Both the position numbers and the translations under genes were made by a program. Of a DNA stretch of 9,601 nucleotides, positions 636 through 2,637 are shown piece after piece (the stretch's first letter is position 1; each line of letters opens with the position of its first letter). The stretch comes from Bacteroidota bacterium (GTDB lineage: Bacteria; Bacteroidota; UBA10030; UBA6906), in NCBI GenBank assembly GCA_016844425.1, contig JAERML010000115.1, positions 1 through 9,601 of the forward strand, in the 5' to 3' direction. Below the pieces are notes generated by a model. The model did no database searches, was not told the origin of the DNA, and was given only the letters and a program-made list of their open reading frames with translations.

Positions 636-781
636 TGCATTTCCTCCCTGATCTTTGTATATTTTTGCCACCGAACACTCCAGATCATTTGGAATGCTTG
701 AGTCAAGCCGTACGCATAATCACCGGCGAGGGCAATTTCAAATGAACCTTTTACTGTGCCTGGAGAGGTGCAAGAGTGGTT

Positions 782-811
782 TGAGCCAAAGGCTCATGCG
801 CCTCCGGCGCA
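782..811 (+). repeat. Twin-hairpin insertion 1 (30 bp) in the D loop of the tRNA-Ser copy
   Basis: Two adjacent perfect hairpins: TGAGCC-AAA-GGCTCA (782-796) and TGCGCC-TCC-GGCGCA (797-811). The intact tRNA reads GGTTGAATT at this point, so the insertion sits cleanly between GGTT and GAAT, with no target duplication and no alignment ambiguity. It has the same plan as the insertion at 862-891. Confidence 0.85.
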
Positions 812-861
812 GAATTGGCCACCCTGGAAAGGTGGTATACCGGCAACGGTATCGTGGGTTC

Positions 862-891
862 TGCGCCAAAAGCGCATCCGCCTCCGGCGGG
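862..891 (+). repeat. Twin-hairpin insertion 2 (30 bp) in the T loop of the tRNA-Ser copy
   Basis: Two adjacent hairpins: TGCGC-CAAAA-GCGCA (862-876) and TCCGCC-TCC-GGCGGG (877-891). They match insertion 1 in length, order and loops (AAA, then TCC) but differ in stem sequence mostly by paired changes. The intact tRNA reads GGGTTCGAATCCC here, so the insertion lies between GGTTC and GAAT, almost the same target as insertion 1. Confidence 0.85.
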
Positions 892-919
892 GAATCCCAT
901 CCCGATCAAATGATGAGTC

Positions 920-1177
920 ATGTTCTACGTCTACATCTTGTGGAGTTACAAACTGCAGAAGCGTTATGTTGGCTGCACCAAAGATGTAGAACGTCGTCTA
1001 GCTGAACACAACAACGGAAGAAATCGATTCACCAAGGGGGGAATTCCTTGGAGCATAGTTCATTCTGAAGAGTTTTCAGATTTGTCGGCGGCGCGGAAAC
1101 GAGAAACATTCTTGAAGACCGGCGCTGGCAGATCGTGGTTGAAGCAAAATCTCCCTCAATACACACGGGAACAGTAG
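920..1177 (+). CDS. Small GIY-YIG nuclease family protein (YhbQ/UPF0213-like)
   Basis: An 85-residue protein that is essentially one GIY-YIG domain. The GIY part is YVYIL at residues 3-7 and the YIG part is YVG at 16-18. The catalytic helix carries Arg25/Arg26 and the conserved His30-Asn31, and Glu62 in RKRETFLKTG fits the metal-binding glutamate. The length matches stand-alone members. The start at 920 is fixed by two in-frame TGA codons at 911-916; no strong Shine-Dalgarno is visible. The gene begins 12 bases after the broken tRNA-Ser copy and ends 9 bases before the intact tRNA-Ser, so it is wholly enclosed by the two copies. GIY-YIG enzymes cut DNA, and some are homing endonucleases. The arrangement suggests, but does not prove, an element tied to tRNA-Ser. 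The cellular role of small YhbQ-like members is otherwise unclear. Confidence 0.85.
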   Translation: MFYVYILWSYKLQKRYVGCTKDVERRLAEHNNGRNRFTKGGIPWSIVHSEEFSDLSAARKRETFLKTGAGRSWLKQNLPQYTREQ

Positions 1178-1186
1178 TCAGCATCT

Positions 1187-1273
1187 GGAGAGGTGCAAGA
1201 GCGGTTGAATTGGCCACCCTGGAAAGGTGGTATACCGGCAACGGTATCGTGGGTTCGAATCCCACCCTCTCCG
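1187..1273 (+). tRNA. tRNA-Ser (anticodon GGA)
   Basis: A complete class II tRNA. Acceptor GGAGAGG (1187-1193) pairs with CCTCTCC (1266-1272), and the discriminator is G1273. The D stem is CAA/TTG. The anticodon stem is CCACC/GGTGG around loop CTGGAAA, with anticodon GGA at 1221-1223 reading UCC/UCU. The long variable arm has stem TACCG/CGGTA, and the T arm is GTGGG-TTCGAAT-CCCAC. CCA is not encoded. It starts 9 bases after the GIY-YIG stop and could be cotranscribed with that gene. Confidence 0.97.
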
Positions 1274-1350
1274 CGAGAAGATTCTCCTCAAACACCTGAG
1301 GATGCCTGCCCCATTTCAAGCCCGCTTCGTTGCGAGCGAGGAGCTTTGCC

Positions 1351-2637
1351 TTGAACCGTACCGTCGCACGCCTTCTGTTTCCTCTCTTCTTTGTTCTCGC
1401 CTGCTCTGCATTCGCGCAGACCGTTCACGTCGTCACTATTGACGGCACCATCAATCCGGCTAGCGCGGACTATCTCCACGAGGGGATCGCCAACGCTACC
1501 AACGCGGGAGCAGAGTGCCTGGTTGTTCGACTCAACACGCCGGGGGGGCTCCTGAAATCCACACGCGTCATGGTGTCCGATCTTCTCACCGCGAAAATCC
1601 CCGTAGTTGTCTACGTCTCCCCTTCCGGGGCACAGAGCGCCTCGGCCGGCGTTTTCATTACCCTGGCGGCACATATCGCGGCTATGGCACCCGGCACGAA
1701 CATCGGCGCTGCGCACCCGGTGGGTATGCAAGGCGGGGAAAAGGATTCGATCATGAACGAGAAAGCCACCAACGATGCTGCCGCATTCATTCGAACCATC
1801 AGCGAAAAGCGCCACAGGAATGTCCGGTGGGCGGAAGATGCTGTCCGCAAAAGCATCTCCATTACTGAGACAGAGGCCCTTCGGGACAGTGTGATTGATC
1901 TCGTCGCATCGTCGCTCGATGAGCTGTTGAAGGAAATAGATGGACGCGAAGTGGCCATCGATGGCACCATGCATTCACTCAGCACCGCCTCCGCAGATAT
2001 CATTGAGCGTGAGATGGATTGGCGGCACCAAATCCTCAATGTTCTCAGTGATCCCAACATTGCTTATATCTTTTTTCTTCTCGGCATTTATGGCCTCATG
2101 TTTGAACTCTACAATCCCGGCACTATTCTCCCCGGCGTTGTCGGGGCCATCTCTTTGATCCTCGCCTTTTACTCGCTCCACACACTCCCAATCAACTATG
2201 CGGGACTTGCGTTGATCGTCGTCGGCATCATCCTGTTTATCCTGGAGATCAAAATCACAAGCTATGGCCTTCTCTCCCTGGGGGGTATTGTCGCACTGTT
2301 CCTTGGCTCAATCATGCTGGTTGACTCCGATTCTTCCCTCGAGTTCATCTCAATTTCATGGGGGATTATCGTCCCGGCTGTGTTGCTAACTGCGCTGTTC
2401 TTTGCCGTGGCCATCGGCTTTGGCATCAAAGCACAACGAAGGAAACCAACCACCGGTGTGGAAGGAATCGTCGGAGAAATCGGCGAGGCACTCTCCGACC
2501 TGAATCCGGAGGGTCGGGTGCGCGTTCACGGTGAGATCTGGGCCGCAACAAGCGCTGAAGGAAAGATCAAGAAAGGGACGAAGGTCAAGATTCATCAGAT
2601 CCACGACCTCCGCCTTACCGTCGTCAAGAACATCTAA
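1351..2637 (+). CDS. nfeD: NfeD-family membrane-bound serine protease (long form, ClpP-like domain)
   Basis: A 428-residue long-form NfeD protein. A signal peptide (residues 1-22, ending CSAFA) precedes a ClpP-class protease domain (about 25-235). Ser98 in PSGAQSASAG and Lys138 in NEKATNDAAAF match the Ser/Lys dyad known for the archaeal homologue. Several membrane helices follow (about 240-345), then a C-terminal OB-fold NfeD domain (about 365-428, GVEGIVGEIGEAL onward). In characterised relatives the protease cuts the hydrophobic tail of its stomatin partner, which is encoded next here. I chose TTG 1351 because AGGAG at 1339-1343 lies seven bases upstream and the signal peptide then starts MNRTVARLLF; the in-frame TTG at 1330 lacks such a site. 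A weak CCTCA/TGAGG hairpin lies between the tRNA and this gene but has no T run. Confidence 0.92.
   Translation: MNRTVARLLFPLFFVLACSAFAQTVHVVTIDGTINPASADYLHEGIANATNAGAECLVVRLNTPGGLLKSTRVMVSDLLTAKIPVVVYVSPSGAQSASAGVFITLAAHIAAMAPGTNIGAAHPVGMQGGEKDSIMNEKATNDAAAFIRTISEKRHRNVRWAEDAVRKSISITETEALRDSVIDLVASSLDELLKEIDGREVAIDGTMHSLSTASADIIEREMDWRHQILNVLSDPNIAYIFFLLGIYGLMFELYNPGTILPGVVGAISLILAFYSLHTLPINYAGLALIVVGIILFILEIKITSYGLLSLGGIVALFLGSIMLVDSDSSLEFISISWGIIVPAVLLTALFFAVAIGFGIKAQRRKPTTGVEGIVGEIGEALSDLNPEGRVRVHGEIWAATSAEGKIKKGTKVKIHQIHDLRLTVVKNI

Follow-up and report, generated by a model that had tools for sequence, protein, structure and literature searches.

The locus

The window analysed here is a stretch of 9,601 nt from a Bacteroidota bacterium (contig JAERML010000115.1), in which a split copy of a tRNA-Ser gene is followed by a GIY-YIG gene and then by an intact tRNA-Ser gene. 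The features of interest, with the analyses that identified them, are:

762..902, + strand: broken tRNA-Ser(GGA) copy, from the 5' end to the T arm, with two splits and without the 3' acceptor strand (alignment)
782..811, + strand: double-hairpin element A, 30 nt, in the D loop, GGTT^GAATT (alignment, folding)
862..891, + strand: double-hairpin element B, 30 nt, in the T loop, GGGTTC^GAATCC (alignment, folding)
920..1177, + strand: stand-alone GIY-YIG nuclease gene, 85 aa, catalytic domain only (PF01541, AlphaFold2 model, fold comparison)
1187..1273, + strand: intact tRNA-Ser(GGA), apparently the functional copy (ARAGORN, Rfam)
1330..2637, + strand: nfeD gene, a marker of the chromosomal locus, outside the element (sequence match, comparison with relatives)

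After the SPFH/NfeD pair, the window also contains a family B DNA polymerase gene (PF00136, PF03104; 3432-5450, + strand), which we take to be unusual for a bacterial chromosome.

Positions 755-920 were aligned with 1180-1280, and a chained alignment was made in addition, in which nucleotides 1-20 of the intact tRNA-Ser correspond to 762-781 (19/20 identical), 21-70 to 812-861 (50/50) and 71-78 to 892-899 (8/8). This reproduces the 77 of 78 identical bases up to the T stem reported in the first-pass annotation, as well as its two interruptions, each exactly 30 nt long (D loop, 782-811; T loop, 862-891); at neither insertion point of the alignment is a tRNA base missing or repeated. The chain score is 61, compared with at most 14 for shuffled tRNAs (170 trials, all loci). 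The end of the copy had been placed at 908, somewhat too far, because the match to the intact tRNA fades at about 902. Two insertions had been described as independent; two are present, but they are not independent in kind, being 82% identical to each other over 34 nt and belonging to one dispersed repeat family, a double hairpin of TnnGCCnnnGGCnnA taken twice, with covarying stems. Each insert forms two hairpins (folding z -3.8 and -2.4; those of A are adjacent and perfect, with 6 bp each), and both are placed between TT or TTC and GAA.

ARAGORN and Rfam call the tRNA-Ser(GGA) of 1187-1273 and neither calls a tRNA at 762-908; Rfam detects no intron family there or elsewhere in the window; with the acceptor strand missing as well, we rejected the assignment of 762-908 as a complete or intron-bearing tRNA. 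An Rfam match to mir-H2 at 785-888 (E 0.77, 26 bits against a gathering score of 92) was taken as chance. The core of insert B has no match in viral contigs (exact search, 0 matches), and nowhere did we see the same bases inside a longer unrelated element.

The GIY-YIG protein

The 85-aa product matches PF01541 with an E-value of 1.5e-13 (51.3 bits, cut-off 22.6), and its AlphaFold2 model is a bare GIY-YIG domain (pLDDT 94.4). The nearest folds are Slx1, UPF0213 and the I-TevI catalytic domain (Foldseek E 1.5e-3 at best), and the nearest PDB sequences are 1ywl and 1zg2. Residues Y5, Y16, R26, H30 and E62 are invariant across 13 aligned sequences and presumably map to the I-TevI active site. 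Purifying selection acts on the ORF in every pair with an estimable dS (8 of 14), at dN/dS of 0.03-0.19 (the other 6 are not estimable, and some dS values exceed 1.8). GIY-YIG homing enzymes have a separate DNA-binding domain after the catalytic domain; here the catalytic domain fills the whole protein and no separate DNA-binding part is visible. In being a small stand-alone GIY-YIG domain, the protein resembles the UPF0213/YhbQ type, for which we know of no link to tRNA genes. The ORF does not lie within a self-splicing intron or intein: Rfam finds no intron family in the window, and at two relatives group I introns sit in the tRNA and do not surround the ORF.

A phage origin of the ORF was considered and rejected: it has no PHROG match at E 0.01, its phage matches are weak (13 records, best identity 46%, none covering 80%) and 2 relative loci were confirmed in viral contigs. 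In the plasmid search, the 8 records listed of 79 matching ones span the intact tRNA region only. Two weak matches to a library of defence systems (E 0.0017 and 0.0084) were not accepted as membership, and the single NCBIfam match is below the cut-off (18.1 of 56 bits).

Relatives of the nuclease adjoin tRNA genes

Genome contigs were searched with the alignment of 13 protein sequences, and the best 80 of 478 relatives were kept; nearly all named records among the relatives are metagenome assemblies, although cultured genera such as Mucilaginibacter and Terrimonas also have relatives. The best 80 span Ignavibacteria, Bacteroidota, candidate-phyla bacteria, Omnitrophota, Caldithrix, Stahlbacteria, Margulisbacteria, Acidobacteria, Chloroflexota and others. 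In 62 of these 80 loci an intact same-strand tRNA gene is found no more than 100 nt from the ORF, and in 68 no more than 400 nt from it; an opposite-strand tRNA was found near the ORF in 2; the density of same-strand tRNAs is 1.38/kb within 400 nt and 0.024/kb farther away. The adjoining tRNAs comprise 11 isotypes. A second sample, from a class-wide search and sharing some genomes with the first set, has a tRNA within 600 nt in 28 of 30 loci. In a third, 17 of 20 fetched stretches carry a same-strand tRNA, the farthest at 490 nt, one has a tRNA on the opposite strand and two have none. The class-wide samples add the isotypes Cys, Met, Pro and Ala.

As a control we took six GIY-YIG genes that are presumably of the UvrC type (frames of 606-676 aa); none of the six is tRNA-adjacent. 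Short GIY-YIG genes collected with the general Pfam model have a tRNA within 500 nt in 14 of 23 cases (adding Asp, so that the isotypes beside nuclease relatives number 16 over all samples), and the four weakest matches to the model of the window nuclease have none (0/4). Together these counts indicate that the tRNA link is specific to a subfamily and not to GIY-YIG genes at large; it is a property of this nuclease subfamily, though an imperfect one.

Twelve of the 80 loci have no tRNA within 400 nt. Seven of them are near a contig end, and in six the tRNA is truncated, fragmentary or interrupted by an intron; one locus belongs to both groups. L012, L037, L040, L049, L063, L067 and L079 have less than 120 nt of contig on one side (in L079 a tRNA-Asn lies 501 nt upstream), and in L033 one flank measures 422 nt. 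From our reading of the sequences, the contig end truncates the tRNA in L012 and L033, and L018 and L048 retain T-arm tails and pieces of tRNA-Arg, respectively. In L026 (3298-3590) and L076 (3361-3582), a group I intron occupies the anticodon loop of a tRNA-Asn directly 3' of the GIY-YIG gene. In L001, L003, L012, L037 and L063 the distance to a contig end is 130 nt at most. Relatives near contig ends are to be expected if tRNA duplicates break assemblies.

On a tree built from 80 columns, ORF lineages group by the isotype of the adjoining tRNA, with 26 label changes against 48.0 in shuffled data (0/200 as low), and a supported clade of 24 ORFs (23 Ser, 1 Leu) crosses several phyla. By itself, the isotype clustering fits host kinship and target fidelity alike.

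Dead tRNA copies and the position of their inserts

The adjacent tRNA of each locus was aligned to the flanks with long gaps free; in 170 shuffles, the 99% level of the scores was 11.3 and the maximum was 14. For the recount, every tRNA called by ARAGORN was masked and a score of at least 15 was required. A dead piece of the adjacent tRNA is present in 58 of the 68 tRNA-bearing loci; the 10 without one at this threshold include L074, because ARAGORN calls its split copy a tRNA. The first-pass annotation had regarded insertions in conserved tRNA loops as beyond random decay and had looked to recurrence beside GIY-YIG genes for support. Both points are borne out by the comparison, in which D-, anticodon- or T-loop-split copies of several isotypes recur in other genomes beside GIY-YIG relatives.

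We mapped 47 inserts of 15-50 nt from 42 loci, including the window: 22 in the D loop, 11 in the T loop, 6 in the anticodon loop, 3 at junction 8-9, 4 in stems and 1 elsewhere. Stems are avoided (4 inserts observed against 19.8 expected; 43 of 47 lie outside stems), and every T-loop insert is at TTC^RA (11/11). Most inserts fall in two size classes, 30-32 nt (29 of 47) and 19-22 nt (14 of 47), of which the 30-nt form prefers TTY^RAA. A second palindrome of 20 nt, CCTGCCTGCCGGCAGGCAGG and its variants, mostly has the target A^G and occurs at comparable tRNA/nuclease loci (L054, L062, L066, L074, L021 and L065). L047, from a candidate-phyla genome, repeats the design of the window, with inserts of 32 nt in the D loop and 31 nt in the T loop. 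A strict T-loop split is seldom met: in a phylum sample of 395 genomes it occurs at 14 places in 7 of them, with 0 for the reversed-pattern control.

In the seven upstream copies split in the T loop (L001, L004, L046, L047, L057, L075 and the window), the match ends 8-12 nt past the insert, about at the end of the stem of the arm. The 3' acceptor strand, degraded according to the first description, is lost in the window, and since all seven copies (7/7) end in this way, the loss belongs to a recurring pattern. In copies split in the D loop, the match ends after 8-18 nt or continues to another insert, and copies with the 20-nt form often match for longer. Dead tails downstream of the gene (L002, L014, L146) start near the T stem and reach the 3' end of the tRNA. 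Over 50-70 nt, the sequence of the dead copy is often 100% identical to that of the intact one.

Occupied and plain loci, and repeated units

The nfeD gene served as the marker in a survey of 70 upstream stretches (30 + 40; none was available for L174 and 132 nt for L218). A tRNA-Ser(GGA) on the same strand lies within about 510 nt of nfeD in 17 of the 70; five of these 17 loci also carry the nuclease gene and 12 are plain. In the occupied loci the nuclease gene is upstream of the tRNA in three and downstream in two, one of the latter (L183) having its nuclease in two pieces with an in-frame stop between them. A full-length match of at least 90% to the tRNA-Ser of the window occurs once each in G002, G007, G516 and G517; of the other genomes compared, six have weaker or partial matches and two have none.

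Some loci contain units in series; tandem units of the element measure about 316-450 nt. In L017, two successive units of tRNA nucleotides 1-21, hairpins, tRNA nucleotides 22-30 and ORF are followed by one intact tRNA. L275 has six nuclease genes spaced 450 nt apart after a tRNA-Leu(CAG), and a 3' fragment of the tRNA precedes each of them, the first fragment being the own end of the intact gene; as its units are nearly identical in sequence, tandem amplification would fit as well as repeated insertion. ORF-less tails follow a tRNA-Ser(CGA) in L153. L156 has five tandem ORF-less units of 140 nt after a tRNA-Val(TAC), each made of a T arm, a double hairpin and a tRNA 3' end.

Double hairpins elsewhere in the genomes

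The double-hairpin pattern used for searches fixes the T/A ends and GCC/GGC and leaves four pairs free. In 98 distinct double hairpins, Watson-Crick pairing is found at 374 of 392 free pairs, compared with 185 ± 9 (maximum 208) after shuffling. The repeat is dispersed, being present in 11 of 15 genomes of one set; its strict form occurs in 39 of 197 genomes, at 1-25 places each, and the reversed-pattern control gives 0. A nuclease match was found in 157 of the 197 genomes, including all 39 with the strict double hairpin (Fisher p 7.9e-5, kinship ignored). The strict form is absent from all 40 nuclease-negative genomes of the 197, again with kinship ignored, and also from 118 of the 157 nuclease-positive ones. 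In 30 of the 39 palindrome-bearing genomes the nuclease match has an E-value of 1e-20 or better; in the other nine the best match is weaker (down to 1.6e-4) and so may be another kind of GIY-YIG protein. Most dispersed hairpins are distant from the nuclease gene, which is present in 7 of 60 fetched palindrome stretches.

These 60 stretches hold 64 distinct sites, 57 of which were set apart as non-tRNA-like by a rough rule; a stricter set of 52 sites was obtained by leaving out ten stretches with a tRNA arm or nuclease. The dispersed target reads TY^RA, with T at 40, Y at 47, R at 47 and A at 39 of the 52 sites, and the score of the target core over these sites is 3.98, against 2.10 ± 0.15 (maximum 2.60). 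There is no general target-site duplication at the dispersed sites, with two look-alikes at k=8. Hairpins inserted genome-wide do not clearly favor the loops of other stems (mean flank stem 3.14 vs 2.97 ± 0.13), which suggests that the preference for tRNA loops is better explained by a TTC^GAA-like target.

Open frames of at least 150 codons hold 23 of the 57 dispersed sites, nine of them in phase 0 (L085, L089, L090, L093, L094, L097, L101, L122 and L134). The phase-0 palindromes are read as SA.GGSA.GG or close variants and add ten residues (SARGGSAFGG, for example); most lie close to the C-terminus of the protein, which presumably resembles a sorting domain.

A proposed homing-type element in tRNA genes and the alternatives

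A free-standing GIY-YIG homing endonuclease located beside tRNA genes and cleaving inside them is reported from phages T4/T6, namely SegB (PMC13096335, published in 2026). Its reported preferred motif, RAWTSGAAC, is found at 23 of 83 cleavage sites without being strictly required, and recombination gives tandem amplification of nuclease and tRNA (PMC13096335). The reverse complement of this motif, GTTCSAWTY, is the T arm where our inserts are found, and on this basis we propose that the window contains an element of the homing type. We think it probable that this element is mobile and lives in tRNA genes, leaving one copy intact, with REP-like palindromes alongside.

According to this proposal, the small free-standing nuclease would cut tRNA genes at TTC^GAA-like loop sequences, the foremost presumed target being GGTTC^GAATC of the T loop, which is common to most tRNAs. 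Repair from an element-bearing copy, the presumed direction of transfer, would bring in the nuclease gene along with a second copy of part of the tRNA gene, and the outcome in the window would be the whole gene at 1187-1273 and the dead fragment at 762-902. The dispersed REP-like palindromes (about 20-32 nt), which have a similar target, may enter at breaks made by the nuclease, and a palindrome at the presumed cut site would destroy that site. Several observations count against the proposal or fit other processes as well. The intact tRNA-Ser keeps the presumed cut site, and the proposal gives no account of self-avoidance; the protein consists of the catalytic domain alone, and no DNA-binding part can be seen in it; and identity of 100% between dead and intact copies over 50-70 nt would be expected from local duplication or gene conversion no less than from homing. 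Several of the counts given here also weigh against it: 118 of 157 nuclease-positive genomes lack the strict double hairpin, the genome association ignores kinship, strict T-loop splits are found in 7 of 395 genomes, most dispersed hairpins are distant from the gene, 10 of 68 tRNA-bearing loci have no dead piece at the threshold used, short GIY-YIG genes collected with the general Pfam model adjoin tRNAs in 14 of 23 cases, and the SegB motif is reported at 23 of 83 sites.

The element may work in analogy to SegB-type free-standing homing. Like SegB, as far as the latter is described in the available text, the GIY-YIG gene of the window adjoins tRNA genes, and its T-arm site overlaps the SegB motif. 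Unlike SegB, the nuclease of the window is a bare domain of 85 aa from bacterial genomes, with weak phage matches and no PHROG match, and the element leaves split tRNA copies with palindromes, a feature that sets it apart from SegB as reported in the accessible part of PMC13096335. An identity with SegB is not established, because there is no viral family match, the two were likened by description, and the protein has no room for a second domain.

A more far-reaching version of the homing proposal, which we put forward tentatively as possible, is a two-part system in which the GIY-YIG nuclease is the engine and the palindromes are non-autonomous riders that insert with no target duplication. 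The nuclease would again cut TTC^GAA-like sites; autonomous copies would enter and rebuild tRNA genes, and the palindromes would spread, as REPs do through RAYT, both between genes and into coding sequence in frame. REP sequences, which go with RAYT (TnpA_REP) transposases, are short dispersed palindromes, some of them within genes (PMC3733652), and in these respects the palindromes of the window type are alike. They differ in the candidate partner enzyme, a GIY-YIG protein and not a tyrosine transposase, and in having the consensus TnnGCCnnnGGCnnA and tRNA-loop sites in place of GTAG/CGTC tags.

It is rather unlikely, in our view, that two unrelated parasites share the tRNA genes, i.e. a homing GIY-YIG gene and REP- or MITE-like palindromes that are moved by another enzyme and accumulate in dead copies. 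Such independence would agree with the presence of the nuclease gene in 7 of 60 fetched palindrome stretches, with the lack of the strict 30-nt form in 118 of 157 nuclease-positive genomes and with the 20-nt palindrome that uses A^G at comparable loci. It is at odds with the count of 0/40 strict double hairpins in nuclease-negative genomes (kinship ignored), with the dispersed target TY^RA, which matches the T-loop site and, through it, the reported SegB motif, and with the termination of T-loop-split upstream copies 8-12 nt past the palindrome in 7/7.

Still less probable, and in fact very unlikely, is a system at the RNA level, in which the nuclease would be a toxin-like RNase acting on tRNA loops and the dead hairpin copy a transcribed decoy or antitoxin. 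Avoidance of stems by the inserts and covariation of the hairpins are features that a structured RNA might show, and in many loci the dead copy lies directly 5' of the gene; however, dead copies also lie 3' of it and are as short as about 25-30 tRNA bases (L002, L014, L146), ORF-less tails occur, and the same palindromes are found in frame within open reading frames. The nearest folds also speak against it: Slx1 and I-TevI cut DNA. A working split or intron-bearing tRNA gene, whose inserts are removed, retains hardly any credibility, since despite the retention of all tRNA bases up to the T arm the copy lacks the 3' acceptor strand, as do the other T-loop-split upstream copies, matches no intron family and is accompanied by an intact tRNA-Ser about 290 nt downstream. 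Tandem duplication of tRNA genes is common in bacteria, but ordinary duplication followed by random decay is just as implausible, given that several isotypes and many phyla share this anatomy, that the inserts have few fixed sizes and lie mainly in loops, and that 77 of 78 bases are retained.

Other systems bear a partial resemblance to the homing-type element proposed here. Rickettsia palindromic elements are palindromes that lie in frame within protein genes, as do the nine phase-0 cases of the window-type repeat; they differ in their hosts and apparently in sequence, and to our knowledge have no association with tRNA or GIY-YIG genes. The double-hairpin elements of Allomyces mitochondrial DNA are reportedly GC-rich paired hairpins regarded as mobile; they are mitochondrial, unlike those of the window, and were likened by description and not by sequence. 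Certain mitochondrial mobile genes are said to replace the end of their target gene and to leave the old end downstream. The resemblance lies in insertion, a rebuilt target gene and a stranded fragment, and the difference in the targets, which are tRNA genes here and protein genes there.

Among the matches listed from the open PMC literature (subscription papers and preprints lie outside it), we found no bacterial GIY-YIG/tRNA element with palindromes. As far as the available text of a phylogenomic study of GIY-YIG nucleases goes (PMC1564403), "tRNA" occurs three times and never with regard to tRNA-gene neighbors, and the word is absent from the main text, as available, of a paper on rRNA insertions in CPR bacteria (PMC11270868).

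Implications

Transfer RNA genes are classic landing sites of large integrating elements. If our proposal is true, a minimal element inside a tRNA gene that leaves an intact copy would represent a different way of inhabiting an essential gene. Pseudo-tRNAs, tandem tRNA fragments and assembly breaks that lack an explanation may be due to such an element. Its association with palindromes would also allow a test of what disperses REP-like repeats where a genome has no obvious transposase, and the overlap of the insertion site with the reported SegB motif (PMC13096335) leads to a direct biochemical prediction. The occurrence of relatives beside tRNA genes in many phyla points to a little-noticed family of selfish elements living in tRNA genes.
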